NCBI GenBank assembly: GCA_030737835.1
Contig: CM060854.1
Span: forward strand, 12,038,311-12,102,310
Length of the DNA: 64,000 bases
DNA from: Acorus gramineus
Lineage: Eukaryota > Streptophyta > Magnoliopsida > Acorales > Acoraceae
Direction: 5' to 3'
Shown: piece after piece, positions 2,894 to 63,734 of the stretch
How positions within the stretch are numbered: the first letter of the stretch is position 1
How the letters are laid out: every line of letters begins with the position of its first letter
Notes under the pieces: model-generated
What the model saw: the letters and a program-made list of their open reading frames with translations, nothing else
Databases searched by the model: none
Told to the model about the DNA's origin: nothing
Program-made: the position numbers and the translations under genes

Positions 2894-3157
2894 TGTTATA
2901 TATGTGTCACTTTTAGCCTGCTGGTAACCGTTAGAGCGTCCTGGCAGTTTTAAAATTTTTTAGGGTTTTCGATCGGAACCGCTAATTTTTGGACTGTTAG
3001 CCATCGTCCTAAGCTAGAGGACTCCGATTGGAAATCTAACTGCATATTTGGTGTCCTGATGCCATTTTAGACCTCTCACGAAAATTTCATCGAATTCCGG
3101 TAACGTTTCTGAAATTTCACAGTTCCGGGGCGTATCCGGGTATTTTAAGTCGCTTAC

Positions 3158-3165
3158 TATATAAG
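3158..3165 (+). promoter_or_regulatory. TATA box of LTR A
   Basis: TATATAAG lies between the start of the LTR and a C/T-rich stretch (3205-3245), the right place for an LTR promoter. Transcription would begin near 3190, which puts both intron-like segments of the LTR downstream of the start site. Inferred from position and sequence only. Confidence 0.55.
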
Positions 3166-3484
3166 AGTGGGATCTAATTTTTCCGAGTTACTGTTCATCG
3201 TCCCTACCAAATCATCTTCTCTCTTCCCTCTCTCTTTTTCTCACTTTTGAGCCCCCTAGACCCCTCAAACCAAGAAACCTAAAGCACGGGAAGTGTAGAT
3301 CGGGTCCCGATCTACACACCGGTGTCTTCAAATCCCGTTTCCGGCGATCCTAGCCTCCCCGACCTCCCCTCTTTGTCCTCTGATTTGGCCCGTTTCGAAG
3401 GCCAAGGTAGATCGGGGCGTGAGAAGGTTGTTGGGAAGGGTTTCGGTGCGCGGAGAGCACCCGGTCACCTCTTCCTCCCCCTTG

Positions 3485-4381
3485 GTAAGCTTCTTTCCCT
3501 CTTTTTTCTTGTCTAGATGATTGCTAGGGGGGGTTTTGTGTTTGGGAGGTGGTCGGCGGCAGTGGGGGTCGTCGGAGGGTGGTCGGAGGTGGTCGGAGGT
3601 GGTCGGAGGTCGTGGGAGGGGCGGTGGTGGCGCTCGAGCAGTGGTTGGCCTGTTTCGGGCAGCAGGCAGCAGCGGCAGCGACCCAGGCGGCACGCAGGCC
3701 GGGCGCGCGCGGGCATGCGCGCGTGCGTGCGCGGGCGTGCGTACGCGCGGCGTGCGCGCGAGTGTGCGCGGGTCTGGTGCGGGGAGCTGCTCGGGCGGCT
3801 GTGCACGGGGCTGTTCGTGCGGCTGGTGCTGGGCGGCTGGTGCTGGGCGGGCTGGTGCGTGCGCGAGGTGGTGGCTGAGGCAGCGGAGGTGCGTGCGCGA
3901 GGTGGTGGCTGAGGCAGCGGAGGTGCGTGCGCGAGGTGGTGGCTGAGGCAGTGGAGGTGCGTGCGCGAGGTGGTGGCCGAGTGCAGGGTGCGCGCGGAGG
4001 GCGCGGCGAGGCCGTGGCGGTGCGCGCGGGGCGCGGTGAGGCGGCGGTGGTGCGCGCGAGGCGCGGCGAGGTGGCGGAGGTGCGCGCGGGGTGCGCGCGA
4101 GGCGAGGCGCTGCGCGCGGGGGCGCGCGGGGTGCTCGCGGGCGGCGCGAGGCGTGCGGGGTGCGTGGGCTGAGGCGCGGCGGTGCGCCCGGGCGGTCGGG
4201 TGGCCGTGCGGGTGGGTGCCGGCCGTGCGGGGGGTTGCCGGAGTACTCGGGCTAGCGTGCGTGCGGGTCGTATGCACGTTTGCCCGAGTGTGGGGTGTTT
4301 AGTTGTGGGTTTATGTATGATCTTGTGTATTTTGTGGTATTTATGGATTTTAACTCACCATATTGAATGTCTGTCTTGCAG
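3485..4381 (+). other. Putative LTR intron 1 (GT-AG) of LTR A with GC-rich core
   Basis: Donor CTTG|GTAAGC and acceptor GTCTTGCAG|ATCT. The same donor and acceptor contexts recur in LTR B (8866-9427, minus), C (11293-11860) and D (13309-14027), and the segment is missing exactly between these points in LTR E (junction 18499/18500). The core (about 3640-4270) is extremely GC-rich with GCGC and GTGC runs. The long open frames there on both strands (runs of Arg, Ala, Gly) come from base composition and are not genes. Confidence 0.6.
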
Positions 4382-4726
4382 ATCTAGACGGACGGTCGCG
4401 CGACGACCCAGATACGGTGAGTGGGGCAATCCAACCCAGTAGAGAGGCGTTATACGCACTTGGGCGTATACCGACCTCTCCTGGGGCACCGTGGATGAAT
4501 ATTAACCTGCAGTAATATGTAATCCATGCTTGTATGATTAAATTGTAGAATGCATGCTACCCTAGACTTTGCATGTTAGGGACTTGCACCCTTAGGATAT
4601 GTGTATGAGCCATGCACCATGCCTCCTGTTTCATGTTAGGAAACCTCGACCTGTGTATGCGTCCTACTAGTTAATTTATTAAATTAAATGCTAGTGTATG
4701 TTAAATCGCATGCCTTAGGTAATATT

Positions 4727-5045
4727 ATCGGGAGGAGCCTTGCGAGGACAGCGGTGAGACCCGTGTTAGGGTACTCCGTGTTCCTTGTTTGGTTGTCGGG
4801 ATGTCCTGTATCGGGACCTCATGCTGCTCTCCCAAGGTTTCTAGTCCCAATAATATTATATGTAATGTTGTATGATTTGTATGATTATTAACATGAGTAG
4901 TGAATATTATAGGGGAGGGGCCTTGCGAGAACAGCGGTGAGACCCGGGTTAGGGTACTCCGTGTTCCTTGTTTGGTTGTCGGGGTATCCTATATCGGGAA
5001 CTCACGCCGCCCTCCCGAGTTTCTTTCCCCCAATGATATTTCAAC
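4727..5045 (+). repeat. Tandem pair of about 183-bp units in LTR A
   Basis: Two diverged direct copies, each starting near GGAG(G)GCCTTGCGAG and containing CAGCGGTGAGACCCG, CTCCGTGTTCCTTGTTTGG and a TCGGGA-CTCA block; they begin near 4731 and 4914. They lie inside putative LTR intron 2 and have no coding sense. Confidence 0.75.
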
Positions 5046-5374
5046 CTTGCTTTTGATTATACTTATTTCCCCGCATCGTAGTTATGCGCCCTGGAGGAAC
5101 TCGGAAGAGTTCATGACATTTGAGTCGTAGTGATATGTTGTTGACGGATCCGAATGGATCATATGCGTATGGTTAGACTGTTCTGTTCCCTTCGCCGGAT
5201 CCGGTAGAGACTGCCCCAGCGTTAGAAAGGCCGTCCTTCGGAGGACCCACATCAGTAGGCGCCTCCCGATATTTGTGACGGACTGTGCTGAAGTTGTGGG
5301 TGGAGACCAGGTGGCCTACGGAGTGGAGGAGAGACTATCGGTGGACTAAGGGTGACCAACAGCCTAGTCAGTCC

Positions 5375-5545
5375 CAAAATCCTATGTCACCCGTGGTAGG
5401 GTGAGGGTGAGGGTGTAGTGGGTTGGCGATGAGTGACCTACTGGTTTTGTGATTGGATGATTATCAGTCCCAATAGCCTATGTCACCCATTGATGGGTGA
5501 GGGTGAGGGTGTGGTGGTTCGGCGAAGTACGAACCACTGGATTAT
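5375..5545 (+). repeat. Tandem pair of about 90-bp units in LTR A
   Basis: Two copies of a segment with CAGTCCCAA, CCTATGTCACCC, then GGGTGAGGGTGAGGGTG and a CGA(T/A)G(T)GA-CTACTGG end. The GTGAGGGTGAGGGTG stretches recur in inverted form in LTR B and in direct form in LTRs C and D. Confidence 0.65.
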
Positions 5546-6076
5546 GTTGTTATGTCGTAGAGACTGGATAAATAATGGAATTGTGGTAAATATTGTCTGT
5601 GATGCATGGGTTGTGCTGTTCACTGAGCGTGTGGCTCACCCCTCGCATATTTTTCCCCAGTTGTTACTGAGCCTGAGCTGGAGCCGGAGCAGCAGTTGGA
5701 GCTTTCCTAGGGATTCCTTCAGTAGCGGAGCAGCGCCACGTTCCGCGAGTGCCAGAGGCTATCAGCATCCCTTTCCTTGGCTGTATGTATTTTATTTCCG
5801 TGCTTGGCACGCGTCTGTATATATTCAGTTGTTATTTCCATGTATATTGGCTCTCACAGGACGTATGATTGTGTATCGAGTCTGTAATATGTTTTGGGTT
5901 ACAGACTCAGTTTTAGCTTCCGCTATTTTGTGTATATATTATGTCAGCCTTGTTTGATATCTGTGTTGTCATTTTTATCTGTGGTTTAGAGTATATGTGT
6001 TTGACCTCATGTGTGGGCCTCTGATATGATATATACACCTGCCGCGTCCCGGGGACGGCCGCCCTGGGGCGTGACA

Positions 6077-6656: not shown

Positions 6657-7489
6657 TGTCACACCCCAGGGCGGCCGTCCCCGAGACGTGACAATAATAA
6701 AATATCAGCTATCAATACCTGAGGTCAATAAAGACTCCAACAACAACACACAAGGTGGCAAAGCAAGGATAATGATAACTGACTGAAAAGCGGAAGCATA
6801 ATATATAAACAATGTCTGTAAATCAAAAACATTATTACAGACTCGAATACACAATCACTGTCCTGTGAGAGCCAAGTCTAGACCAAAGAAAATACAACCT
6901 GTGCCACATGCACGATTTACAAAGCATAAAAATGACTCTAGGAATGCTGGCAGCCTCGCACTCGCCACCCGTCGACAGAACGCTCCACGCCCATAAGACC
7001 ACGCCACAGGGGAGCTCCAACTCCACGCTCAACACTACCCTTGAAAAGAAACAGTATGCGAGGGGTGAGCTACAAGCTCAGTGAGTGGTTGGAAACCAAT
7101 CACCATACAACAGTTCAATACATAAGCACTTTCCTTTCAAGGAAAACATGGGTGAAAACCCATGGATAACAGGGTCACGCGGCAGCGCGACCAACCTCAC
7201 CCTCACCCTCACTCCCAGAGGGAGACTCTTGGGACTTTTGGGGAGAGACCATACCGTTGGTCGAGGAGACCCGGGATTACTGGTCCACACAACAATACTG
7301 GAACATCTACATCGGGATAACTGACCCACGATGTCTTTAAACATCGACACGAGACCGGACCATACAACTATGGGAACGGACGAACAACGAATGGGTCACG
7401 CGGCGATGTGTCTTCACCTCATCCTCACCCTCACCCCTTAGAGGTGACATAGGACTTTTGGAAGAGACTTAGACTGCTCTACACCCTTG

Positions 7490-7790
7490 GTCCACCGGTA
7501 GCCCTTTCCCCACGTAGCCTCTACCTGGTATACTCCCACGATCAGTACGCTTCTGAATGCATCGGTGGTACCTACGGATGGGAGCCCTCTGTCAGGACAG
7601 CTTTAACGCCGGGGAGTTCCTACATCGGATCCAACGAAGGGGAGAACGATTCCACGCTCACAATATCATTCGTTAACCCTCTCCCGGGTAGCCTCTACCT
7701 AGTATACTCCCACGATCAGTACGCTCCCGAATGCATCGGTGGTACCTACGGATGGGAGCCCTCTGTCAGGACAGCTACAACCCGGGCCTC
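7490..7790 (-). repeat. Repeats carrying CCTGACAGAGGGCTCCCATC in LTR B
   Basis: Two tandem copies of about 160-185 bp (near 7500-7612 and 7683-7772) contain, on the minus strand, a block with CCTGACAGAGGGCTCCCATC, GGTACCACCGATGC, TGATCGTGGGAGTATACC and AGGTAGAGGCTAC. The same block recurs in LTR D (14506, 14910, 15155) and LTR C (16625, 16800). Confidence 0.75.
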
Positions 7791-8865
7791 TTCAACACGG
7801 ACGACATTGGGAGTAAACATTCCATGTTCGCAAAGCGAATCCAATGGAAAAATAACTACTCTCGATAATCACTTATCGAGATATCGAATACTACTGTACT
7901 CCCACACCGTTGCGTCGCTCAGACACAAAGGGGGGTTGCCTCTGCTCTCACATAGAAATAATCCCATAAGCTAATGAATTCTCCTGAATTCCAAATGAGT
8001 GCATCGCTCGGGGTGATTGCATCGCTAGCGCTCTAACTAATAAGGTACAACCTGACAGCGGGTCATACCCACGCCTATTTCAGATAGGCCTAATTAGTTT
8101 TAACATGCGCATATATTTTAGAGGAGAATTTAATCTTAGTTGTGTGCATGAACCATATGCACGATCACATATCAATTAATCATAGGGATACTCCCTAATC
8201 ATATATTTACATCATAATAAATCATACAACATGCATACATGGTCATTAATCACATAAACATACCAAATATACTTTAATATCCGTTGGATATCGCCAACTT
8301 AAAAGAAAGGGTCAAGCGCGATCTCGCGCACTAACAGGTGCATGCCAATATTCCAAACGAACCTGAGTCGAGTAGGAAATCGCCTCTACTTACTCAGTTC
8401 GTTCAGAGGGAGAGGGCGAGAGAGATCATCATCTCATGAAGCTGGTCATAGCTTTGCCCCATTAGCATGGGCGCAACAGCTACACCACGCCCTCGAGTCT
8501 TATCGCAAGGGAATATTAGGCAGGTGCCCGTTATTAACCCAGACTTAATCATACTGTATATTCCCATTAATATGGTGAGAGTAGTATTACAATACCACCT
8601 AAGACATGCCATATTCTATACATCCATACACATTTACAACATACATGCCCATACTAGAGGGGCTCATGCAACACAATCATTCATACATGAATACAATACA
8701 TGTATATAAGCCTAGCATGCAAGATATCTACATATTATAGCTTAAGGGGCCCCATCGATGCGCGACGCGCGTCTACGCGCGTCGAGCGCATCCCGAGAGG
8801 GGGGGGGATTGGATCGAACCACTCACCATACAACCCGGGACCTCGCGCATCCCATCCGACGAGAT

Positions 8866-9427
8866 CTGCAAGGTAGGGGCATCAAATTTGGTGAGTAACA
8901 TCACAATTTAACACTTAGAAATCATTAGAAATACCAAAGACTTAGACATGCACGCATACGGGCTCGCACGCATGCGAGCACGCGCGTACGCACGCATGCC
9001 CGAGTGCCCCAGCACCTACCCGAGACCCTCGACAGCCCCACACATTCCCCAGCACGCACGTGCGCATGCGTGCACTGACACCCAGTCCCACGCCCAGACG
9101 CATGCCCAGACGCATGCCCCGCGCGCGCGCACGCTCGTGCGCGCACCCCCGCTAGCGCCAGCGCCCGCGCGCACCAGCGCGCCCACTCCGCGCGCACCCG
9201 CGCGCTCGCACGCACGCGCCCGCGCATGTCTGCGCGCCCGCCTGCGCCTGCCAGAGCTTGCACGCGCACGCGCGCAGACAAGGCTCTGCACGCGCCCAGC
9301 CTATCCTAACCCTCTTTTAACCCCTCCTCCACACTTCTCACTCACCCTAAACCAATTACCTAGCATGCATGACCTCCCCACAACCCCCTAAGCCATGAAA
9401 ACCAAGAAAAGAAGGGGAAGAGCTCAC
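8866..9427 (-). other. Putative LTR intron 1 of LTR B
   Basis: On the minus strand the donor reads CCCAAG|GTGAGC (starting 9427) and the acceptor CCTTGCAG|ATCTCG (ending 8866), 562 nt. The GC-rich part (about 8945-9300) is CpG-dense and gives spurious open frames on both strands. Confidence 0.55.
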
Positions 9428-10298
9428 CTTGGGAGGGGGAATGAAAGGGGGAGATTCGGGGGCCCTCGATGCACCCGCGACCACCACTACCACCACCTCC
9501 TCAGCCCTCCCTCAGCCTCCTTCTTGGCTGAAAATCAGGGGGGGGGGAGTTCATGAAAAGGTGCTTGAGAGAGAGGAGATCAACAACAACAACAATACCT
9601 ACACAAACCTACACTTGCACTTGCACCTTCTCCTTCTCTTCTCTTTAAGAAATTAATACAAACACATGGTGGGAGTGAAAAGAGAGAAGACAGAGCCAAG
9701 AAAAGTTGACGTGGGGAGTGGGAGAGAGAGAGAGGGAGATATTTTGGGCAAATAAATATCTAAAAGAGGGATAGAAATGACCAATTTATCCTTGACTAGA
9801 AATTCTGAGCATGCTTCACTATAACAGCCATAACTTCTTCAATCTAGCTCCGAATTGCACTATTCAAAGTCCGTTGGAAATCCAAGACGATTATCTACAA
9901 CTTTTATGTTTATGCCAAGATCAAATAATCCTTTTAGCTATTTCTAAATGTGAGCTAAACATTGAACAGGGCTGCTGCCAGAATTTTTCATCCCCGGGGT
10001 ATACTTGGAAAAATACCCATAACTTTTACTACATGAATCCAGTTGATCTAATTCCACTTTTGTACGAAATCTAACTCAAAACTGAGCATCTCATAATAAA
10101 ATCATATTTAAACCTCTTCATCTTGGATTTTAACAAAATCAAATCCAAATACCAAATTGGAAATACATAACTTCTAGGAGAAAAATTATGTAACCAAATT
10201 TTAAATCAGAGCGCTCCAACTCCTGCAGGTGGCTAAAAGCCAAAATTTTAGCGACTCCGATCGAAAAAAATAAGGCTCCAAATGACATAGGCATAACA

Positions 10299-10333
10299 TT
10301 CTTCCCCCCTTAGGAAATTTAGTCCTCGAAATT
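10299..10333 (-). other. Polypurine tract scrap beside LTR B
   Basis: On the minus strand it reads CGAGGACTAAATTTCC then TAAGGGGGGAAGAA directly before the LTR start TGTTATGCC. A GGAC-AAATTTC block followed by an AAGGGGGG polypurine tract just before the 3' LTR is typical of plant Ty3/gypsy elements. This is the only internal sequence of this family left in the window. Confidence 0.65.
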
Positions 10334-10491
10334 TACATGAATCACATGCACAATAACATAATGATTAACTATAAGGGTTCTCCCTAATATGAATATACAG
10401 CATAAACAACATATCATGCAACGTATATACAAGGCATGGCCTAACTACACATGCATACGAGGGCTATTAATCATACAAAGCACACAAAGTA
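10334..10491 (-). mobile_element. LTR E, first fragment (minus)
   Basis: Matches the middle of LTR B (8140-8270) imperfectly: CATGAATCACATGCAC, TACTCCCTAAT-like and CATGCATAC blocks in the same order. It ends in AAGTA at 10487-10491, the left target repeat of LTR C, and continues at 17852. Divergence from B makes it the oldest-looking LTR here. Confidence 0.65.
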
Positions 10492-12477
10492 TGTTATGCC
10501 TGTGTCATTTGGAGCGCTCTGATTGAAAATTAAGTTACATAATTTTCCGATTTGGTATTTGGATTTAATTTTGTTAAAATCCAAGATGAAGAGGTTTAAA
10601 TATGATTTTATCATGAGATGCTCAGTTTTGAGTTAGCTTTCGTAGAAAAGTGGAATTAGATCAACTGGATTCATGTAGTAAAAGTTATGGGTATTTGTCC
10701 AAGTATACCTCGGGGATGAAAAATTCTGGCAGCAGTCATGTTCGATGTTTAGCTCACATTTCGGAATAGCGGGAGGGATTATTTGATCTTGGCATAAACA
10801 TGAAAGTTGGAGATAATCTTCTTGGCGTTCCATAGGACTTTTCATTGTGCAATTCGGAGCTATATTGAGGAAGTTGTGGCTGTTCTAGTGAAGCATGTAC
10901 AAAATTTCTAGTCAGGGACGAATTGGTCATTTGTATCCCTCTTTTGGATATTTATTTGCCCAAAAATATATCTCTCTCTCTCTCTCCCTCCCACTCCCCA
11001 GGTGGGATTCTTGGGTCTCTCTCTCTTTTCACTCCCCCCATGTGTTTGTGTTATTTCCTCAAAGAGAAGAGAAGGAGAAGGTGAAGGAGAAAGAGAAAGG
11101 TTTGTGTAGGTGTTGTTGTTGTTATTGTTTCCCCTCTCTCAAGCACCTTTTCATGACCATTCCCCCCCCCCTGATTTGCAACCAAAGAGGGCTGGTGAGA
11201 GGCTGAAGGGGAGGCGTGGTGGTGGTGGTAGTTGAGGTGGCCGTGGGCGCGTCGAGAGCCCCGCATCTCCCCCTTTCCTTTTCCCTCTTTTGGTAAGTCC
11301 TCTTCCCCTTCTTCTTGATTTTTTTGGGCTGTTGGGATGGTTGGGGAGGTCATGCATGCTAGGTAGATGGGTTAGAGTGTGTGTGAGGGGTTGGGGAGGG
11401 TTAAAAAGGGGTTAAGATTGGCTGGGCGCGCGCTGGGGGCTGTCTGCGCGCGTGCGCGCAGGAGGGCGCTGGCAGGCGCAGGCGGGCGCGTAGACGCGCA
11501 CGGGCGCGTGTGCGCGAGCGCGCGGGTGCGTGCAAAGTGGGCGCGCGGGCGCTGGCGCGACCGGGGGTGCACGCAAGCGCGCGGGAGCGTGAGCGCGCGC
11601 GGGGCAGTGCGCATGGGCGTGTGTCTGGGCGCACGGCTGGGTGCCAGTGCTCGCGCGCGTGTGCGTGCACGTGCTGGGGCATGCGTGGGGCTGCCCAGGG
11701 GCTCGGGTAGGTGCTGGGGCACTCGGGCATGTGTGCGTACACGCGTGCTTGCATGTGTGCGAGCCCGTATGCGTGCATGTCTAAGTCTTTGGCGTTTCTA
11801 GTAAATTCTAAGTGTTAAATTGTGATGTTACTCACCAAACTTGATGCCCTTACCTTGCAGATCTCGTCGGATGGGATGCGCGAGGTCCCGGGTAATGGTG
11901 AGTGGTTCGATCCAATCCCCCCTCCCCCCTCTCGGGATGCGCTCGACGCGCGTAGACGCGCGTCGCGCATCGATGGGGCCCCCTAGCTATACTACTTGTG
12001 TAGATAAGTAGTATGGCCATGCTTAAGCTATAATATGTAGATATCTTGCATGCTAGGCATATATACATGTATTGTATTCATGTATGAATGATTGTGTTGC
12101 ATGAGCCCCTCTAGTATGGGCATGTATTTTTGAAATGTGTATGGATGTATAGAATATGGCATGCCTTAGGTAGTATGGTAATACTACTCCCACCATATTA
12201 ATTGGAATATCGAACATGAATAAGTCTGGGTTAATAACGGGCACCTGCCTAATATTCCCTTGCGATAAGACTCGAGGGCGTGGTGTAGTTGTTGCGCCCA
12301 TGCTAATGGGGCAAAGCTATGACCAGCTTCATGAGATGATGATCTCCCCCGCCCTCTCCCTCTGAACGAACTGAGTAAGTAGATGCGATTTCCTACTCGA
12401 CTCAGGTTCGTTTGAAATATTGGCATGCACCTGTTAGTGCGCGAGATCGCGCTTGCCCCTTTCTTCTAAGTTGGCGC
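10492..12477 (+). mobile_element. Solo LTR C, first part (plus), TSD AAGTA
   Basis: Begins TGTTATGCCTGTGTC right after AAGTA. Carries the C/T-rich leader (10975-11040), putative intron 1 (11293-11860), the 37-nt exon-like piece (11861-11897) and the GTGAGTGG donor. It is interrupted at 12477 by LTR D and resumes at 16095; the sequence either side (TTAAGTTGGCG / ATATCCAACGG-type) is continuous in LTR B. Together with 16095-17851 it is about 3.74 kb and nearly the mirror image of LTR B, so 6657-12477 forms a very large imperfect palindrome. Confidence 0.85.
11293..11860 (+). other. Putative LTR intron 1 of LTR C
   Basis: Donor CTTTTG|GTAAGT, acceptor ACCTTGCAG|ATCTCG, 568 nt. The GC-rich core is at about 11420-11780. 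A splice of this segment would give a junction TTG|ATCTCG, which is what LTR E shows in genomic DNA. Confidence 0.6.
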
Positions 12478-13308
12478 TGTTGTGCCTGTGTCATTTGGAA
12501 TGCTCTGATTGAAAATTTGGCTACAAAATTTTTTTCCTCGAAGTTATGTATTTCCAATTTGGTATTTGGATTTGATTTTGTTAAAATCCAAGATGAAGAG
12601 GTTTAAATATGATTTTATTATGAGATGTCTAGTTTTGAGTTAGCTTTCGCACAGAAGTGGAATTAGATCAACTGGATTCATGTAGTAAAAGTTATGGGTA
12701 TTTTACCAAGTATACCCCGGGGAGGGAAATTCTGGCAGCAGCCCTGTTCTATGTTTAGCTCTAATTTCGGAATAGCTGGAGAGATTATTTAATCTTGGCA
12801 TGAACATGAAAGTTGTAGATAATCTTCTTAGCTTTCCAACGGAATTGGAATTGTGCAATTCGGAGCTATATTGAGGAAGTTATGGCTGTTCTAGTGAAGC
12901 ATGCGCAGAATTTCTAAGTCAGGGATGAAATGGTCATTTCCATCCCTCTTTAGATATTTATGTGTGCAACAAAATCTTCCTCTCTCTCTCTCTCTCTCTC
13001 CCTCCCAACCCCACGTCAACCTTCTTCAAGCCCTCTCTTCCTCTCTCTCAAGCCCCCCAGGTGTTTGTTTTAATGTCCCAAAGAGAAGGAGAAGGTGGAG
13101 GAGGAAGAAATGGTGAGGGTTTGTTCATGTATTGTTGTTGTTGATCTCCTCCTATATCAAGCTCCCTTTTCATGATCCTCCCCCCCTGATTTGCAGCCAA
13201 GAAGGAGGCTGAGGAGAGGCTGAAGGTGGTGGTGTTGATGGTGGTGGTTGAGGTGGCCGTGGGCGCGTCGAGAGCCCCGCACCTCCCCCTTTCCGTTTCC
13301 CTCTTTTG

Positions 13309-14027
13309 GTAAGTCCTCTTCCCCTTCTTTTTTATTTTTAGGGTTGTTGGGATGGTTAAGGTGGTCATGCATGCTATGCATAGGAGTTAGAGTGTGTGTG
13401 AGGGGTTGGGGAGGGTTAAAAAGGGGTTAGGGAAGAGTGGGCGTGCGTTAAGGGACGTTTGTGCGCGTGCGCGCGCAGGTGCGCACGCAGGCGGGCGCTG
13501 GAAGGCGCTGGCGGGCGCGCGGGCGCGTTCGCGTGAGTGCGCGGGTGCGCGCGAAGTGGGCACGCGGGTGCTGGCGCGAGCGGGGGTGCGCGCGGGAGTG
13601 CGCGCGGGCGCGTGTGAGCGTGCGCACGCGCGGAGCAGTGCGCCTGGGCATGCGCCTGGGCGCGGGGCTGAGGCCAGTGCACGCGCGGGGTTCTGCACAG
13701 GCTGGACGCGCAGTGCGCGCGGGCTCACGCAAGCGTGCGCGCGCGCGCGACAGCGCGTCTGGGAGCCCGGGCAGGCGCACGGCAGTGCGCCAAGGGTGCT
13801 GGGGCGCGTGCGTGCGTGCGTATGCGTGCGTGCGCGTGCGGGGGGCCGTGCGTGTGGCTGCCCGAGGGTTCGGGTAGGTGTCGGAGCACTCGGACTCACG
13901 TGCTTATGTGCGTGCTCGCATGCGTGCGAGTCCGTATGCATGCTTGTCTGAGTATTTGGTATTTCTAGTAAATTTCTATGTGTAAATTGTGTTGTTACTC
14001 ACCAAATTGGATGCCCCTACCTTGCAG
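13309..14027 (+). other. Putative LTR intron 1 of LTR D with long alternating purine-pyrimidine tract
   Basis: Donor CTTTTG|GTAAGT and acceptor ACCTTGCAG|ATCTCG, 719 nt. Within it, 13804-13840 is 37 nt of uninterrupted purine-pyrimidine alternation made of GCGTGC units, a strong Z-DNA candidate. Open frames across it are compositional. Confidence 0.6.
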
Positions 14028-14505
14028 ATCTCGTCGGAAGGGATGCGCGAGGTCCTGGGTCATATGGTGAGTGGTTCGATTCAACCCCCCCCCCCTCTCT
14101 AGGGATGCGCTCGACCCGCGTAGACGCGCATGTAACCATGCCACATTAGACCTTGTATGCTAGGGATATACATCCATATATCATGTATAGAGGCCCACAC
14201 ATGCCTAGACACCATGTCCCTTAATTGGAAAGCCTCGATCTACGCATGTTGCCCATTTAGTTTAATTTATTTAAATCAAATGTTAATATTTTGTTATAAG
14301 CATGCCTTAGAGAATATTATAACCTTGCTGTTATAATATATGTTTCCCCGCATCTTAGTTATGCGCCCTGGAGGAATTCTTGAGAATTCATGACATTAGT
14401 AGTGTTACAAATCGTTGTCGACGGATCCAAGAGGATCGTATACGCGTGAGTAGGTTGTCTTCTCCCTATGGTTGGATCCGAGTAGGGACTCCCCGGCGTT
14501 GGAAA

Positions 14506-15290
14506 GCTGACCTGACAGAGGGCTCCCATCTGTAGGTACCTCCGATGCGTTGGACAGTGCTGATCGTGGGAGTATACCAGGTAGAGGCTACGGAGTGTGG
14601 GAGAGGCTACCGGGTGGACCAAGGGTGGAGAGCAGTCTAGTATGTCTCAAAAGGCCCATGTCACCCCTAAAGGGTGAGGGCGGGGTGGGTCGGCGATCTT
14701 ACGACCCTCTAACTTGTGTACTTACTCCCGTATAGGGACTATGACTATTTTAAGGTTAATATAAGTGTGTTGAGTATTGTTATGCCTATGTTTTGATATC
14801 TCGATAAGTGAGTATCAAGAGTAGTTGTTTTCCATTGGGTTCGCTTTGCGAACATGGGATCGTTCTCCCCTTCGTTGGATCCGATGTAGGAACTTCTCGG
14901 GTTTAGTTGTCCTGACAGAGGGCTCCCATCCGTAGGTACCACCGATGCATTCGGAAGAGTACTGATCGTGGGAGTATACCAGGTAGAGGCTACCCGGGGA
15001 AAGGGCTACCGGCGGACCAAGGGTGTAGAGCGGTGAGTTGAGGAGATCGGGTTGTAGATACTACCCGGGAGAGGGTTAACGAATGATGTTGCGGGTATGG
15101 GAATCGTTCTCCCTTTTGGTTGGATCCAAGTAGGGACTCCCCGGTGTTGGAAAGCTGTCCTGACAGAGGGCTCCCATCTGCAGGTACCTCCGATGCGTCG
15201 GACAGTGCTGATCGTGGGAGTATACCAGGTAGAGGCTACGGAGTGTGGGAGAGGCTACCAGGTGGACCAGGGGTGTAGAGCAGTCTAAAT
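14506..15290 (+). repeat. Three CCTGACAGAGGG repeats in LTR D
   Basis: Copies near 14506, 14910 and 15155 each contain CTGACAGAGGGCTCCCATC, GGTACC, CGATGC, TGATCGTGGGAGTATACC and AGGTAGAGGCTAC. Each is preceded by a GTTGGATCC-AGT(A)GGGACT block. Confidence 0.75.
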
Positions 15291-16094
15291 CTCTTCCAAA
15301 AGTCCCAAAAGTCTCCCTCCAGGAGTGAGGGTAAGGATGAGGTGAAGAATATCGCCGCGTGACCCATTCGTTGTTCGACCGTTCCCATAGTTGTTGGGTC
15401 CGGTCTTGTATCGATGTTTAAAGGCATCGTTTGAGCAATTATCTAGATGTAGATGATCCAGTAGTGTTGTGTAGACTAGTAAATCCGGGTCTCTTCGACC
15501 GACGGTATGGTCTCTCCCCAAAAGTCCCAAAAGACTCCCTCCGGGAGTGAGGTGGGGGTGAGGATGGTCGCGCCGCCGCCTGACCCAGTTATCCATGGGT
15601 TTCCACCCATGTTTTCCTTGAAAGGAAATTGATTATGTATTGAACTGTAGTATGGTGATTGGTTTCCAGCCACTCACTGAGCTTGTAGCTCACCCCTCAC
15701 ATACTGTTTCTTTTCAGGGGCAGTGTTGGGCGTGGAGCTGGAGCTTTCCTGTGGCGTGGTCTTATGGGCGTGGAGCGTTCTGCCGGCGGGTGGCGAGTGT
15801 GAGGCTGTCAACATTCCTAGAGTCATTTTATGCTTTGTAAATCGTGCATGTGGCACAGGTTGTATTTTCTTTGGTCTAGACTTGGCTCTCACAGGACAGT
15901 GATTGTGTATTCGAGTCTGTAATAATGTTTTTGATTTACAGACATTGTTTATATATTATGCTTCCGCTTTTCAGTCAGTTATCATTATCTTGCTTTGCCA
16001 CCTTGTGTATTGTTGTTGGAGTCTTTATTGACCTCAGGTATTGATAGCTAATATTTTATTATTGCCACGTCTCGGGGACGCCTGGGGCGTGACA

Positions 16095-17851
16095 ATATCC
16101 AACGGATGTTAGAGTATATTTTGTATGTTTATGTGATTAATGACCATGTATGCATGTTGTATGAATTATTATGATGTAAATCCATGTTAGGGAGTGTCCC
16201 TATAATTATTAGATGATTGTGCATATGGTTCATGCACATAGCTGATATAAAATTCTCCTGGATATATTTATATGCGCATGTTAAAAACTGATTAGGCCTA
16301 TCTGAAATAGGCGTGGGTATGACCCGCTGTCGGGTTGTACCTTATTAGTTAGAGCGCTAGCGATGTAATCTCCCCGTGCATCCGAGTGATGCACTCGTGT
16401 GGAATTCAGGAGAATTCATTATCTTATCGGATTGTTAAGCCGGTAGTTGGGGCGTGACACCCCCCCTTGTGTCTAAGCTACGCAACGGTGTGGGAGTACA
16501 GTAGTATTCGATATCATCGATATGTGATTATCGAGTGTAGTGTTTTTCCATTGGGTTCACTTTGCGAACATGGAATGTTTACTCCCAATGTCGTCTGTGT
16601 TGAAGAGGCCCGGGTTGTAGCTGTCCTGACAGAGGGCTCCCATCCGTAGGTACCACCGATGCGTTCGGGAGCGTACTGATCGTGGGAGTGTACCAGGTAG
16701 AGGCTACCCGGGAGAGGGCTAACGAATGATATTGCGAGCGTGGAATCGTTCTCCCCTTCGTTGGATCCGATGTAGGAACTCCCCGGCGTTGGAAAAGCTG
16801 TCCTGACAGAGGGCTCCCATCCGTAGGTACCACCGATGCGTTCGGAAGCGTACTGATCGTGGGAGTATACCAGGTAGAGGCTACGTGGGGAAAGGGCTAC
16901 CGGTGGACCAAGGGTGTAGAGCAGTCTAAGTCTCTTCCAAAAGTCTCAAGAGTCTCCCTCCGGGAGTGAGGGTGAGGATGAGGTGAAGACACGTCGCCTC
17001 GTGACCCATTCATTGTTCGTCCGTTCCCATAGTTGTTGGGTCCGGTCTCGTATCGATGTTCAAAGACATCGTTGGGCAGTTATCTCGATGTAGATGATCC
17101 AGTAGTGTTGCGTAGACCAGTAATCCCGGGTCTCCTTGACCAACGGTATGGTCACTCCCCAAAAGTCCCAAGAGCCTCCCTCCGGGAGTGAGGGTGAGGG
17201 TGAGATTGGTGATTCAGTAATGTTGTGTGGACCAGTAATCCCGGGTCTCCTCGACCAACGGTATGGTCTCTCCCCAAAAGTCTCAAGAGTCTCCCTCCGG
17301 GAGTGAGGGTGAGGGTGAGGTTGGTCGCGCCGCCGTGACCCTGTTATCCATGGGTTTCCACCCATGTTTACCTTGAAAGGAAATTGTTTATGTATTGAAC
17401 TGTTGTATGGTGATTGGTTTCCAGCCACTCACTGAGCTTGTAGCTCACCCCTCACATACTGTTTCTTTTCAGGGGCAGTGTTGGGCGTGGGGCTGGAGCT
17501 TTCCTGTGGCGTGGTCTTATGGGCGTGGAGCGTTCTTCTGGCGGGTGGCGAGTGCGAGGCTGTCAGCAGTCCTAGAGTCATTGTATGTATTGTAAATCGT
17601 GCATGTGGCACAGTTGTATTTTCTTTGGTCTAGACTTGGCTCTCACAGGACAGTGATTGTGTATTCGAGTCTGTAATAATGTTTTTGGTTTACAGACATT
17701 GTTTATATATTATGCTTCCGCTTTTTAGTCAGTTATCATTATCCTTGCTTTGCCACCTTGTGTGTTGTTGGAGTCTTTATTGACCTCAGGTATTGATAGC
17801 TGATATTTTATTATTGCCACGTCTCGGGGACGGCCGCCCTGGGGCGTGACA
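16095..17851 (+). mobile_element. Solo LTR C, second part (plus)
   Basis: Continues LTR C from ATATCCAACGGATG and runs to the terminal GGGGCGTGACA (17851), followed by AAGTA (17852-17856), the second copy of the target repeat seen at 10487-10491. Includes two CCTGACAGAGGG repeats (16625, 16800), a duplicated GTCTCC...CGGGAGTGAGGGTGAGGGTGAG segment (17120-17330) and the CACTGAGC motif with acceptor TTTCTTTTCAG (ending 17472). Confidence 0.85.
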
Positions 17852-19272
17852 AAGTATACCCTAACATGCATTGGATATCATCAACTTAAAAGGGAAGGGT
17901 TAAGCGCGATCTCGCACACTAACACGTGCATGCCAATAATCCTAAGAGAATCTTAGTCAAGTAGGTACCACATCTACTTACTCAGTTCGTGCAAAGAGGG
18001 AGGGCGAGAGAGAGAAAAAGCCTCATTATCTCATGATGTTAGTCATATCTTTGCCCCCAACGAATATGAGCGCAACAACTACACCACACACTCAAGTCAA
18101 TGACAAGGGAATATTAGGCATGTACTCGATTATTAACCAATGCTTAAAGATGCTAGATACTTACTATCATAGGGGTAGTATCAAATAAGAACTACTTAAG
18201 GCATACCATATTCTATACATCCATAATACTCACACAAAATACATGCCCAACAAGAAAGGCGCATGAAAACATGATCATTCATACATGAATACAATACATA
18301 GGCAAGTACATTGGAGAATAGGGGGTTCTATGTAATATACGAGCTACACAGGCCTAGCATGCAAGATATCTAACATATTATGGATGCCAAGATGCCCCAT
18401 GGATGCGAAATGCACGACTACGTGCATCGAGCGCTTCCCAAAATGTTGGATTAAACCACTCACAGATACCTAGATTGTCACGCATCCATCCAACGAGATC
18501 AAGAGAGGGGAAGGAAAGGGGGAGATACGGGGGCTTTCAACCGCACCCACGACCACCTCGACCACCACCACCTCCCTTGCTTCTCTTCTTCTTCTTGGTT
18601 GAAACAGGGGATGGGAAAATTTAGGGAAAAAAAGTGGGGGAGTTAGAGGGGGAGGAGAAGGAAGAGACAACACACAAGCACACACACCTTCACTTGATCT
18701 TGCTCTTCCAAGCACTTATTCTTCTTCTTCCATCTCCTTATCTTTTCCACCAAAATACACACAAAAGGGGGGGCTGAAACCAGGGGAATGAGAGGGAGAA
18801 AACTCAGCTTGGATGGAGAGAGAGAGGGAGAGAATAAAACTAATTTAGTCAAGTCCAAATACATCGAGTGATGTGTATTTAGGGGTGACCTTAAGTGGGG
18901 CAAAGGGGGTGGTAAGGTTAAGTTTAAAGTCACCCACACCCAACCACAATTTTTCACTTTATTGAGAAGTGTGAAGTGAAGCGAAGTATCACATCACTCG
19001 AAATATCACACCCACCGAAACCCAGTAATGGTCAAACCCAGATGCAATTCGAAATTGCATATTTTTTTAAACGTTACCCGAATTCGATGAAAATTTACGG
19101 GTATGACAATACCAGTACTAGAACTTGTAATATGCAGTCAGATTTTTTTATTAGATCCCTCAAACTCCCATAGATCGTAAAAACCTAAAATTTTAGCAAC
19201 TCTATTAAAAAAAATATGACTCCAAATATCACCAGCTTCACTAATATGACTCCAAATGACACAAACACAACA
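17852..19272 (-). mobile_element. LTR E, second fragment (minus), lacking intron 1
   Basis: Continues the minus LTR split by C. On the minus strand it starts TGTTGTGTTTGTGTC (19272) and resembles B-D throughout, but more diverged. At 18499/18500 the sequence passes directly from the leader end (CTCTCTTG) to ATCTCGTTGG; every other copy has 560-900 nt of GC-rich sequence between a GT donor and AG acceptor at that exact point. The GTGAGT donor of putative intron 2 is still present. This is the copy that suggests splicing of the LTR leader. Confidence 0.75.
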
Positions 19273-23007: not shown

Positions 23008-23043
23008 ATGGTATCAAACTATAAACCCTATCTGCTACATTGA
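23008..23043 (+). promoter_or_regulatory. Upstream ORF (11 codons) ending 2 nt before the PETs start
   Basis: ATG at 23008 opens an 11-residue frame (MVSNYKPYLLH) whose TGA (23041-23043) is followed by AA and then the main ATG. A second, 4-codon frame (MKGA) starts at 22985. Both lie after the inferred leader acceptor, so they should be in the mature leader. The spacing would favour termination-reinitiation; this is inference. Confidence 0.5.
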
Positions 23044-23045
23044 AG

Positions 23046-26000
23046 ATGACAGCTGTGTTTCCTTGTTCCATTGGCAATGTTGCTCTTTTCCCTCAAACAA
23101 CTTTCATACCTAGGAAAGGTGTTAATCTTCCAAAACCAACCTTTTATGGTCTCTCAACGAAACTAACACCATCTCAGAAGTTTCAGTTGAGCAAGTCAAT
23201 CGCACTGAGACTATTGCAGAAAAGATCAAGAATCCAAATCTTATCAGCCGTCCCTACTGATGTGGCTGTTGACATTAATGCAGCTACTTCAGCCACTGAT
23301 GCTGAGAAAACCTCAGAACCTTCTCCAACTACTACTGGTGCATCCAAAGTTCCCTCTGTTACTTCTCATTCTTCTCCGACTCAGAAAAAACATCAGAGAC
23401 CCATGAGAAAAAGTGAGATGCCACCAGTGAAGAGTGAGGAACTAAAACCCGGTGCATCTTTTATGGGGAAAGTGAGATCAATACAACCATTTGGTGCTTT
23501 TGTCGACTTCGGGGCATTCACGGATGGTCTGATACATGTTTCCAAAATGAGCGATGGGTTTGTCAAAGATGTTGGAAGCATTCTTTCGATCGGTCAAGAA
23601 GTAAAAGTCAGGATAGTGGAAGCTAATTTTGAGACCAGAAGAATCTCCTTGACGATGCGTGAAAATGATGATGTCAAGCCACAACAAAGTAAAGAGCCTA
23701 CTGGCACTACTAATAATGATAGGCCAAAATCCGCCAGAAGGAACAGTGGAAAACCTGCTCAAAAGCAAAAGGAGGCCAAGAAAGCAACCAAGTTTATGAA
23801 GGGTCAGGTTCTGGATGGAACTGTGAAGAACCTCACAAGATCGGGAGCTTTCATATCCCTCCCTGAAGGCGAGGAAGGATTTCTACCGCAGTCTGAAGTG
23901 GCTGAAGTGGTTGCAAACATTATGGGGACCTCAAGTTTGCAGGTTGGTCAAGAAGTGAATGTTCGGGTGTTACGTATATCTAGAGGACAGGTGACTTTGA
24001 CGATGAAGAAGGAAGAGAATATGGAGGAGCTGAATATGAAACTGAATCAGGGGGTTGTGCACAAAGCAACCAACCCTTTCTTTCTGGCCTTCCGCAAGAA
24101 CAAAGAAATCGCGTCTTTTTTGGATGAAATGGAGAAGCTGAAATCTGTTGCTGAAACTAAAACAGAGACTGTTGTTCATGAAGTAGAAGATTCAGGAATT
24201 CCTGGTGGAGTCCCTGATAAAGATGGGATATTGTTCAAAGAAGTGATTGAGGAAGAAATGGCGGGTGATTCGACTGATAAGAAAGCACCAATAGAAGAAG
24301 CTGAGGTAATTGCTGTGGTAGAAATAAAAACGGAGCCTGAAGAAGAAAACATATCTTTAGAAGAGGTGGGCAAGGGAGAAGAAGACATAACAGTGGCTTC
24401 ATTGAATGCTGAAGCTGCAATTTTGACCGTAAAAGAAGAGGCCAGTACTGGTTTACTTGGAGAAAACGATGTGTCTGTATCAGATCCAGTAATTGATGAG
24501 GGTCCTGTGACTGATGAAGTTAAGGAAGCTAGTGATGCAGTTGCTTTGTCTGATGCTTCAGTACCCAATGAAGTTATTGAAGTGGGATCTGTGGTTGATC
24601 CATCTGCAGACACGAGTGACACAATTTCAGAAAGTGTGGAGCCTGAGGAAGTTGTTTCCTCAGAAACTGCAGTCCTTGAGGACACTGTATCAAATGAAGC
24701 AGAAGAAGCTACAATGGAGAGTAATCTAGAGGTGGTGTCTGAGAAGCCATTGCCTGTGGAAGATGAGATACCTCCAGTAGTTGCATCAGAAAATGGTCCT
24801 TCCATTCCTGACGAAAATGGTGGTGTCATCTCAGGTGGAGAAAGAAATGATGCACCGCAGGAAAGCGTGGCCAAAGGTTTGTAGTTTTTTTTTTTATTTC
24901 CTTGTATTATGTTTATTCTCCTGTACTTATTGTGGATGATTCTTTTAACTTTGAAACATATGAAGTTTATTGCCCATATTTTAATATGAATTCAGTGGTG
25001 CTGTAGGTGTTCCACTGGGATAGCATATGATAATTTTGCAAAATAGACATCTGGGCTTTGTTTGCAAAAATATGTGCTGCTTTGATTAAAACTTGCTAGA
25101 TGATCTTTTTCTGTAAGACCTGAAATCAGATTGCAGAAATAACAGTAAATCACCATAGTTATAAACTTGTAAGAACACTCATATACAAAAACATACACAA
25201 GGACCAATGTAGATATTATATTCTTATTGGTTTTGGTTAAAAATATTTTATTGATTACTTGCAACAATTTATTTTGTTTTGTTTGTGTATGTCATGGTGT
25301 TGCCCAGTTAACAAAGGTAAAGTTTGACAATTTTTCATTAATCACAATATTATGGGACTTCTCACTCAAATTTGACATAATGGTTCGGCCAAAAGAATCA
25401 TTGGCTGCAACTCTGCATACTTAAGACAATGCTCACATGTTCTATTTTTAGTGATAGATTTTTGTTTATTTGATATACAAATGCGCAACATCTAACAGCA
25501 CAAATTTATGGTTTCATTCCACTTTATTGCAATGCTTGTAGATGATAAAATAATACCATCTTACTGACATTTCTGTTTCAATATGATGCCTGGAATCAGC
25601 AACTATAAGCCCAGCTTTGGTAAAGCAACTACGCGAAGAAACAGGAGCAGGGATGATGGACTGCAAGAAGGCCCTCTCAGAAACTGGCGGTGACATCACT
25701 AAAGCGCAGGAGTTCCTTCGAAAGAAAGGCTTAGCAAGTGCAGATAAGAAAGCCAGCAGAGCCACAGCTGAGGGTAGGATTGGCTCCTACATCCATGATA
25801 ACCGTATCGGTATCCTTATCGAGGTGAACTGCGAGACTGATTTCGTATCTCGAGGTGAGATATTTAAGGAATTGGTTGATGATCTCGCGATGCAAGCTGC
25901 TGCTTATCCGCAGGTACAATATTTGGTCACTGAAGATGTTCCGGAAGAGACAGTGAACAAGGAGAGGGAGATTGAGATGCAAAAGGAAGATCTTTTGAAT

Positions 26001-27870
26001 AAACCTGAGCAAATATGGTCAAAAATCGTCGAGGGTCGAATAAAAAAGAGGCTTGATGAACTTGCTCTGCTCGAGCAACCGTACATAAAGAATGATAAGG
26101 TGCTGGTGAAGGACTGGGTGAAGCAGACGATCGCAACTGTTGGTGAGAATATAAAAGTGAAGAGGTTCGTACGGTTCAATCTCGGGGAAGGCTTGGAGAA
26201 GAAGAGCCAGGATTTCGCTGCAGAGGTGGCTGCACAAACTGAAACAAAAGTGTCGCCCACAGTATCGATGGATCCTCCCAGTGAAGTGAAGGAAGTTGTT
26301 GAAAAGTAAGTAAAGCCTTCCTGAATACCATGTTGGATTCTCCTGAATGTTTTCTACTTTTCGCACTATAGTTCACTAGTAATTATTCAATGGGAAGGTG
26401 GAATATGTTACTATTCAGTAGTATACACAATAAACTGAAAAAAAGGATTCAGAAAAACTGAAAATTAAATTTTTTATTCCAGGTAATGGTATGGTTTTAT
26501 TAGTAACCCAACTAAACCTGACCTTGTTGGGGTGGGTTTGGGTTCCATCGAGTTTTAAGTTTTTAGCTTGGAACCCACCCGAATCTGCAACCTCACATAA
26601 ACTAGAAACTTTAAAAATTATGGTTTTCCTCTCATTTAAACCCTCTCTTCCCAGCCAAAACCCTTTTATAGGTCTTATATATATTTGATTAGATAAAATG
26701 TTTTATGTTATGTATTTTGAGATTTATTCATGAGCTTTAAATGTTTTATGTGATGAATATTATAAAGAACAATTTATGTTTTATGATTTTGAGACAGGTA
26801 GTCTCTTTATGTTGAAACAATTTATAATTTTTTATGCTAAACATAACTTAATTCTTTTAAGTAAATTTTATTATTATGTTATGTACTCCAACCACTTAAA
26901 AAAGCATGTGCAGGTATGGATTTCAAGAAGAAAAAAAAAACTGGAGTGGGGTGAGGTGGGTATTGAGTCAGACATTGTGGAGTGAGGTTTGGTTTGGGTT
27001 GCATCAAACCTGACTACAACCTGACCCATTGTCGATTCTACTTGTGACAGCAAAATTCAGGACAATAAATATTTTAAAAAAATTTTATTGATCTTATGAA
27101 ACAACGAGTTCTCCACACATCTAGCTTTTGTCTTAATTTAAAGTAAACTATTGTTTTTACAACTTGTAATACATGACCATGTTGAGACATTTCAGTTCTT
27201 TAACTTCTGAAATTCTGAACACAAACTCGATTGCAGAGCCCCAACCGTCGCAATCTCGGCTGCATTGGTCAAGCAACTACGTGAAGAAACCGGCGCAGGA
27301 ATGATGGACTGCAAGAAAGCATTAACAGAGACAACCGGCGATTTAGAGAAGGCCCAAGAGTACCTCAGAAAGAAAGGCCTCTCATCTGCAGACAAGAAAT
27401 CAAGTCGGTTAGCCGCAGAAGGCCGTATATCGTCATACATACATGATGCCCGCATCGGAGTCCTACTCGAGGTCAATTGCGAGACTGATTTCGTGGGTCG
27501 GAGCGAGAAATTCCAGGAGCTCTCTGACGACCTTGCCATGCAAATCGTGGCATGTCCACAGGTGAAGTATGTCTCTATTGAAGAGATCCCGGAGAGCATC
27601 AAGAACAAGGAGTGGGAGATTGAGATGGGGAGGGAGGATTTGAAATCAAAGCCCGAGAATGTAAGGGAGAAGATTGTTGAAGGGAGAGTCTCGAAGAGGC
27701 TTGGAGAGCTTGCTCTTCTTGAGCAGCCCTTCATTAAGGATGATGGGATGCTTGTGAAGGATTTGGTGAAGCAGACAGTGGCTGCTCTTGGGGAGAATAT
27801 AAGAGTCCGAAGGTTCGTTCGATTCACTCTTGGAGAGACAACTGAAGTTTTCAATGAACAAATCACATAA
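23046..27870 (+). CDS. PETs: Polyprotein of elongation factor Ts, chloroplastic (PSRP-7 S1 domains + two EF-Ts units)
   Basis: Coding exons 23046-24876, 25600-26305 and 27237-27870 join in frame (phases 1 and 2) to 1056 residues. The N-terminus (about 65 residues, Ser/Lys-rich) looks like a plastid transit peptide. Two S1 RNA-binding domains lie at about 131-203 ([16 protein letters not shown]) and 250-325 ([16 protein letters not shown]). Then comes a 280-residue acidic linker rich in Glu, Val and Ser. Two EF-Ts units follow, one in exon 2 and one in exon 3, each with [16 protein letters not shown] and EVNCETDFV signatures. EF-Ts recycles EF-Tu in plastid translation; the S1 part corresponds to plastid ribosomal protein PSRP-7, and the fusion is conserved in plants and green algae. 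ATG at 23046 is chosen because [12 protein letters not shown] fits the family; the preceding TTG at 23040 is not a start. Retaining intron 1 would end the protein two codons past the exon (GGTTTGTAG), leaving an S1-only form. Confidence 0.95.
24877..25599 (+). other. PETs intron 1, between the S1 and EF-Ts parts
   Basis: Donor CCAAAG|GTTTGT, acceptor GGAATCAG|CAACT. An in-frame TAG lies 7-9 nt into the intron. The intron falls exactly between the PSRP-7-like and EF-Ts-like parts, so splicing choice here could decide whether an S1-only or a full polyprotein is made. Confidence 0.7.
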
Positions 27871-28735: not shown

Positions 28736-28804
<69 letters not shown>

Positions 28805-28814
28805 GGGGGGGGGG
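28736..28814. repeat. (CT)n(TA)n(GA)n(G)11 microsatellite at left edge of palindrome
   Basis: About 28 nt CT, 23 nt TA, 15 nt GA and 11 G in a row. A matching (TC)n(TA)n tract ends the palindrome on the right (31345-31389). Confidence 0.9.

Positions 28815-31343: not shown

Positions 31344-31362
<19 letters not shown>
28790..31362. mobile_element. 2.6-kb foldback element or palindrome with arms of about 1.27 kb
   Basis: The left arm (to about 30076) and right arm (from about 30099) are inverted copies along their whole length, with a loop of about 22 nt at 30077-30098. Examples: TTTGATACC at 28815 against GGTATCAAA at 31332; CACATGATTAGATGTGATCGG-like against CCGATCACATCTAATCGG; ACATAAATAGTGAAATGATG at the centre. 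Arms differ by scattered substitutions and small indels. Both ends abut (TA)n, resembling transposons that target (TA)n microsatellites (as described for Micron in rice). The arms hold C/T leader-like sequence and repeated AGGGTTT; open frames in them are short and not recognised. It could also be a Mutator-type foldback. Confidence 0.75.
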
Positions 31363-31388
<26 letters not shown>

Positions 31389-39274: not shown

Positions 39275-39303
39275 TTATGTCTTGTAGTGTATACTGTGTA
39301 AAC

Positions 39304-39745
39304 AGAACCTGTAACATTTATAGTAGTGTACACATGCTGCATAACAGTGTACACAGTTTAAAACACAGAACCTGTAACATTCATAGCAGTGTACACATGC
39401 TGCATAACAATGTACATCATGTAACAGACAGAACCTGTAACATTTATAACAGTGTACACATTCTGCATAACAGTGTACATCGTGTAACAGACAGAACCTG
39501 TAACATTCATAACAGTGTACAAATGTTGCATTACAGTATACACTATGTAACAGACAAAACCTGAAACATTTATAACAGTCTACACATGCTGCATAACAAT
39601 GTACAAAGTGTAAAATACAAAACCTGTGACATCCAACATGATACACATACCGCAAAATAAGTTACATATTGTAACACAGAGAGAACATGTCACATACACA
39701 ACAGTGTAGACATATTGCATAACAGTATACAAAACCTGCATTACA
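39304..39745 (+). repeat. Minisatellite, about seven units of 60-63 bp
   Basis: Units begin CAGAACCTGTAACATT(T/C)AT and contain AGTGTACACATGCTGCATAACA and GTACA-(C)-GTGTAACAGA. The first four are close copies; the last three are more diverged. It runs open on both strands for over 100 codons only because the unit length is near a multiple of three and lacks stops, so this is not a gene. Confidence 0.85.
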
Positions 39746-62075: not shown

Positions 62076-62444
62076 ACATGCATGACTTGAGTTACAGTTA
62101 AAAAAGGGACTGTGTGTAACAACACTCAAAAATAAAAACACTCAATAAAAGCCTTTTTTTTTTCTTAATTTCTTAGGTACAAATCTTTTGATAAATTTAT
62201 GTACTCACGGGTTAGCAATCTGTCATAGAACTATATAACAATCTTGGACGTGTTTTAATAATGAAGTGCACCAATTGGGTGACCCAATTTGTGATTAAAA
62301 TTTTAATAAGACAAACTTTTCTACTATACTAATAAAAAATGTTTAAGTTGTCATATTTGTTCCTTTGTGTATGAGGGCGGAGCCACATGGAGATGAGTAG
62401 GGACAGCTGCCCCCACAAAAACCATGCCCCCTTTTATATTTTTA

Positions 62445-63722: not shown

Positions 63723-63734
63723 TTATTTTTAAGA

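Follow-up and report, generated by a model that had tools for sequence, protein, structure and literature searches.

GT-AG segments with intron-like edges inside the long terminal repeats of a plant retrotransposon family, and their exact absence from one copy

Introduction

Plant LTR retrotransposons generally carry no introns, and the available part of one account names Ogre and EVADE as the exceptions (PMC12786077). The intron of Ogre, a plant Ty3/gypsy element, is removed from part of the transcripts only, as far as the accessible portions of the sources go (PMC6317226, PMC12786077). In BARE1, EVADE, and CRR, splicing separates the RNA used for translation from the RNA used for replication. 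For BARE, the accessible text of the same source adds that the spliced RNA must stay out of reverse transcription, that attempts to amplify DNA copies of the spliced RNA failed, and that no loss copies were found (PMC3735527). How translated RNA is kept apart from replicated RNA in LTR retrotransposons at large is presented there as an open question (PMC3735527, available part). Outside this group, Penelope-like elements are described as retaining introns through retrotransposition (PMC3846280, available part). Introns have also been used as markers: in intron-marked Ty and ONSEN reporters, the loss of the intron proves an RNA intermediate (PMC12786077, available part). Transcripts of solo LTRs spliced to downstream exons are reported in PMC4558846, the accessible portion of which contains no LTR-internal intron, and in the paper by Neumann et al. 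(2011), which deals with centromeric retrotransposons, introns and splicing are not mentioned. Within the accessible portions of the openly licensed literature (CC0, CC BY, CC BY-SA), we found no LTR that has both splice sites inside, which is weak evidence of absence. Here we describe a family of plant LTRs in which four copies carry a GT-AG segment inside the LTR and a fifth lacks it.

Results

The window, that is, the whole stretch of 64,000 nt that was analyzed, is plant DNA: Pfam matches mark an EF-Ts/S1 gene region of the chloroplast type and a protein with a U-box and ARM repeats. Self-comparison of the window and reading of the ends located five LTRs of one family, referred to as A to E, which are nested at 2.9-19.3 kb (Table 1); these five copies within 64,000 nt are the sample for all LTR comparisons. 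A, B, C, and D are complete (3183, 3743, 3642, and 3617 nt, respectively), beginning with TGTTATA, TGTTATGCC, or TGTTGTGCC and ending with GTGACA; E is truncated and has the TG end only. Target-site duplications flank A (ACCAT) and B (AAGTA), and C and E are without a partner end. For D, the duplication was sought at both ends and not found (flanks GGCGC and ATATC), and D was therefore rejected as an ordinary insertion flanked by a duplication. LTR E is the oldest copy of the nest; B is inserted in it, and D in B. The initial annotation had taken E for an LTR like its sisters, but E is not whole: it is interrupted by LTR B and has lost its far end, being truncated near the polypurine-tract-like sequence before LTR C, at a point somewhere within 10312-10340. 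The leader drawn in that annotation also proved too short, since the complete LTRs (3183-3743 nt) run far past it. The U3 of E scores 75 and 82 against A and C, respectively, with shuffle maxima of 41 and 49, so that E belongs to the same family. We also considered whether E and C might be an LTR pair from a single element and provisionally rejected this, as the identity after the E junction is 74% between C and E versus 94% between B and C; the flanks (TACAC versus GTGCC) also oppose it.

All copies of the cluster are solo or truncated and lack pol, and a short polypurine-tract-like end precedes LTR C. We take the family, as a lead only, to resemble the Tekay/Del-like clade of Ty3/gypsy chromoviruses, from its long LTRs and the look of the pol end and polypurine tract. 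Conserved LTR motifs had no matches in the viral contigs and prokaryote genome contigs scanned. An inverted repeat, GTCTGTAA...TTACAGAC, lies near the LTR end at 5878-5910 in A and has counterparts in B, C, and D. The segment 14067-14700 of D, at the place of the first part of putative intron 2 (see below), resembles A (73-80%) and not B or C, which suggests that D is a mosaic made by template switching between subfamilies. Elsewhere in the window, two reading frames with an EF-Ts domain (25617-26309 and 27265-27870) both match Pfam EF_TS and share 70% DNA identity, and an S1-domain frame (23040-24884) lies ahead of both. A 2.6-kb near-palindrome at 28766-31386 is 87% identical to its own reverse complement, about 63-bp units stand in tandem at 39302-39695 in five copies in register, and 92-bp tandem-repeat blocks form an inverted pair at 62444-63723.

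Table 1. Positions of the LTRs and of the segments within them, in window coordinates.
Feature	Position	Strand	Remarks
LTR A, complete solo LTR	2894..6076	+	Target-site duplication ACCAT; most divergent copy
LTR B, 5' part	10492..12477	+	From self-comparison; B inserted in E, target-site duplication AAGTA
LTR B, 3' part	16095..17851	+	From self-comparison; holds putative intron-2 acceptor TTTCTTTTCAG at about 17472
LTR C, complete	6657..10298	-	Preceded by polypurine-tract-like AAGGGGGGAAGAA
LTR D, nested in B	12478..16094	+	Target-site duplication not found; mosaic
LTR E, 5' part	17852..19272	-	Starts with TGTTGTGTTTGTGTCA; interrupted by solo LTR B at 17852
LTR E, continuation beyond inserted LTR B	10340..10486	-	About 73-74% in alignment to B and C
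Putative intron 1 of LTR A, 897 nt	3485..4381	+	GTAAGC...TTGCAG
Putative intron 1 of LTR B, 568 nt	11293..11860	+	GTAAGT...TTGCAG
Putative intron 1 of LTR C, 562 nt	8866..9427	-	GTGAGC...TTGCAG
Putative intron 1 of LTR D, 719 nt	13309..14027	+	GTAAGT...TTGCAG
Putative mini-exon 2 of LTR A, 35 nt	4382..4416	+	
Putative mini-exon 2 of LTR B, 37 nt	11861..11897	+	Followed by GTGAGTGG
Putative mini-exon 2 of LTR C, 39 nt	8827..8865	-	
Mini-exon homologue of LTR E, 36 nt, joined directly to exon 1	18464..18499	-	GTGAGTGG at 18463
Putative intron 2 of LTR A, 1244 nt	4417..5660	+	GTGAGT...TTTTTCCCCAG; signals only
Putative intron 2 of LTR C, 1787 nt	7040..8826	-	GTGAGT...TTTTCAAG; signals only
Putative intron 2 of LTR D, 1651 nt	14067..15717	+	GTGAGT...TTTTCAG; signals only

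The initial annotation had reported a GT-AG segment that is present in A-D and absent from E, and this is confirmed. The segment, referred to as putative intron 1, sits at one position in the four LTRs (897, 568, 562, and 719 nt in A, B, C, and D). It ends with CTTGCAG, after which the LTR continues with ATCTCG (ATCTAG in A). LTR E reads CCTCTCTTG and then ATCTCG at 18500/18499 on the minus strand with no segment between, the end of its exon 1 before ATCTCG being CTCTCTTG; the junction given in the annotation is thus borne out.

We then inspected how exactly the junction coincides with the splice-like sites. By BLAST, E 18575-18500 matches B 11218-11292 and E 18500-18394 matches B 11860-11979; the matches break at both splice sites, and their one-base overlap is a shared G. 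All pairs of breakpoints within 30 nt (3721 pairs) or 60 nt (14641 pairs) to either side of the splice sites were scored. For both B and D, the narrower scan yields two best-fitting pairs and no others, namely the exact splice pair and its 1-nt equivalent (2 of 3721), and the same two are best in the wider scan (2 of 14641). Against C, 15 of the 3721 pairs score at least as high as the exact pair, the top ones being displaced by 3-5 nt at the donor and by 1-3 nt at the acceptor, and against A 27 of the 3721 do. C and A leave the breakpoint undecided because their exon ends differ from that of E (CCCAAG in C, shorter in A). The claim of a precise absence at the splice sites holds in comparison with B and D, to within the G/G ambiguity; C and A do not settle it either way. 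A microhomology-driven deletion was rejected, as the breakpoints share one base only. It is unlikely that E lost a real intron by an ordinary DNA deletion that chanced on the splice sites. The cluster has indeed undergone other rearrangements (E is truncated, D has no target-site duplication, and the number of repeats in putative intron 2 varies), and a single loss copy is known. Such a deletion, however, would have had to hit the splice pair or its 1-nt equivalent among the 3721 or 14641 pairs in the comparisons with B and D, and with a breakpoint homology of a single G no repeat explains the site.

The polarity of the change was judged from the relationships of the five copies. Past the junction, E shares 73-74% identity with B and C, and the identity of A with B, C, and E is 44-46%. 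The maximum-likelihood tree places E, on a branch of 0.23, between A (branch 0.65; 1.22 in a second alignment) and B+C+D, the split of B+C+D from A+E having a moderate support of 83 and 71 of 100 in the two alignments. The midpoint root falls on the branch of A. Although exon 1 of A is barely alignable to B-D (41-45% identity), the segment of A is homologous to that of its sisters. Its last 130 nt resemble C and D better than any of 1000 shuffles each, and B with 6 of 1000 shuffles as good; its first 60 nt resemble C and D with 7 and 2 of 1000 shuffles as good, respectively, and show no significant likeness to B (203 of 1000). As the outlying A has a homologous segment, a loss in E is more economical than a gain elsewhere, which agrees with the loss proposed in the initial annotation under a root that is set by midpoint only. 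Intron 1 is thus probably ancestral and lost in E, judging from midpoint rooting of five copies. The opposite polarity, an E-type ancestral LTR and a gain of the segment by the ancestor of A-D, is quite unlikely. The unrooted five-copy tree by itself allows the root on the branch of E, but the far longer branch of A, the closer identity of E than of A to B and C, and the presence in E of the rest of the leader, including the second donor-like site described below, argue against it.

At both edges, segment 1 resembles an intron, in support of the initial annotation. T makes up 39-42% of its first 80 nt and 37-47% of its last 90 nt, compared with 18-27% of the final 100 nt of exon 1 and 11-26% of exon 2. 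The middle of the segment is 72-78% GC and in this departs from the U-rich norm that the available part of the source gives for plant introns (PMC3735527). By a simple U1-match score, in which ties are present, donor 1 ranks 11 of 283 GT sites in A, 2 of 324 in B, 1 of 296 in C, and 2 of 303 in D. By an ad hoc acceptor score, acceptor 1 has middling ranks of 4 of 177, 6 of 221, 6 of 220, and 11 of 241, respectively. A branch-point-like ACTCAC is located about 27 nt before acceptor 1 in all of A-D, so that GT-AG ends, a U1-like donor, a branch-point-like motif, and an acceptor, as expected of a U2-type intron, are all present. TATA-like boxes lie 327 (A), 344 (B), 331 (C), and 354 nt (D) upstream of donor 1, and on this basis the segment would lie downstream of the predicted start site; A-D have additional TATA-like matches, and E has a weaker TAAATA 382 nt before its junction.

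Intron 1 also folds more strongly than its shuffles in B (z -6.8) and C (z -5.5), with 0 of 100 shuffles as strong in each, and in A with z -2.5 (1 of 20 shuffles). The predicted fold may fit a role in packaging, or may reflect the alternating GC repeats only. Rfam gave no matches over the window, and the GC-rich fold was rejected as a known RNA. We regard it as distinctly improbable that the segment is an unspliced GC-rich insert or fast-evolving block whose GT and AG ends arose by chance. The very GC-rich middle and the folding, which could belong to a structural leader element, would suit such a block. The U-rich edges, the occurrence in A, at homologous positions, of donor, branch-point-like, and acceptor motifs, the lack of a duplicated target at the segment ends, and the exact absence in E speak against it.

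A second donor-like site, GTGAGTGG, follows the acceptor or the E junction by 35-39 nt in all five LTRs. It is the best or tied-best scoring donor in each of the four complete LTRs and is weaker in E because the preceding base is T. The likely acceptors read TTTTTCCCCAG in A (rank 3), TTTCTTTTCAG in B (rank 1) and D (rank 2), and TTTCTTTTCAAG in C (rank 12). They are preceded by a conserved GCTCACCCCTC, and A is 90-93% identical to B, C, and D over 30 nt there. These signals make a second leader intron probable in these LTRs, with a mini-exon between the two introns. If both are real, introns 1 and 2 make up 64-67% of each complete LTR. They would hold most of the ATGs of the leader, about 47 of 55 in A, 78 of 88 in B, 80 of 90 in C, and 49 of 61 in D, the leader being taken as the span that starts 290 nt upstream of donor 1 and stops at the LTR end; the introns would also account for most of the length of this span. 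Donor 2 is still present in LTR E, as is the beginning of intron 2, in which 521 of 604 nt align with C, so that splicing would have removed intron 1 alone from the template of E. Within putative intron 2, blocks of about 100-130 nt are repeated (14905-15034, 16619-16748, and 16796-16925, with counterparts in C); they differ in copy number among B, C, and D and are partly conserved in A.

Discussion

In our judgment, it is fairly probable that these LTRs contain a spliced 5' leader past the TATA box, that unspliced RNA is the usual template of reverse transcription, and that E is a copy of spliced RNA. In the leader, exon 1 (about 300 nt) and mini-exon 2 (35-39 nt) would be separated by intron 1 (562-897 nt), and the mini-exon would be followed by probable intron 2 (1.2-2.0 kb) and by an exon 3 that extends beyond the LTR. 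The spliced RNA, which has fewer upstream ATGs, would probably be the translated message, and the unspliced RNA would normally be packaged and reverse-transcribed. A-D would retain intron 1 because the unspliced RNA is the normal template; with four of five copies keeping it, the unspliced RNA must be the usual template under this scheme. LTR E would derive from an RNA freed of intron 1, though not of the start of intron 2, before reverse transcription. During LTR replication, the 5' end of the RNA is the template for R and U5 in both daughter LTRs, so that a single spliced template would make both LTRs intronless.

Several observations count against this reading. The sample has five copies and a single loss event, the partner LTR of E is absent from the window, and LTR C, which is on the same strand and adjoins E behind the polypurine tract, carries the intron. 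The GC-rich middle of intron 1, the middling ranks of acceptor 1, the lack of likeness between A and B in the first 60 nt of the segment, the breakpoint left undecided by C and A, and the moderate support of a tree rooted by midpoint weigh in the same direction. It is very improbable that a resident LTR E was converted by the cDNA of a spliced LTR transcript instead of being inserted from spliced RNA: the same exact junction would be expected, and the mosaic LTR D indicates that copies exchange sequence, but an extra recombination step is needed and an informal look at the alignments made gave no sign of a conversion tract in E.

An extension of the spliced-template reading is possible, and we put it forward tentatively. 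The whole R-U5 would be a two-intron leader, with about two thirds of the LTR length being intron, splicing would sort translated from packaged RNA, and E would be a natural leak of this sorting. The LTR would then bear a heritable mark of the RNA pool that was reverse-transcribed, and E would read out the error rate of the sorting. An LTR-internal intron would be inherited only via unspliced RNA; a single round of copying from spliced RNA would remove it from both LTRs. Counting intron-plus versus intron-minus copies in such a family would measure RNA sorting directly from genome sequence. An intron-bearing leader would, moreover, offer one reason why some LTRs are very long.

The described systems each share part of this arrangement. 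Like Ogre, this is a plant LTR retrotransposon with a candidate intron; Ogre, according to the parts of the sources available, splices in its coding part. The introns of BARE1, EVADE, and CRR are likewise placed in the coding part in the available text, whereas intron 1 of the present family has its two splice sites within the LTR itself. Reportedly, an intron inside the terminal repeat of a Penelope-like element was described by Arkhipova et al. in 2003. Penelope-like elements may serve as a partial precedent outside true LTR retrotransposons: they are not LTR retrotransposons, they have another replication scheme, and the puzzle there is the retention of introns, not their loss. HTLV-1 and foamy viruses have a splice donor in the R region, inside the 5' LTR, as here. 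Their acceptor, unlike the one here, is outside the LTR, downstream in the coding region, and splicing leaves no intact LTR-to-LTR replicating RNA. The introns of the Ty and ONSEN reporters were engineered, whereas the intron of this family would be a natural one, situated inside the LTR.
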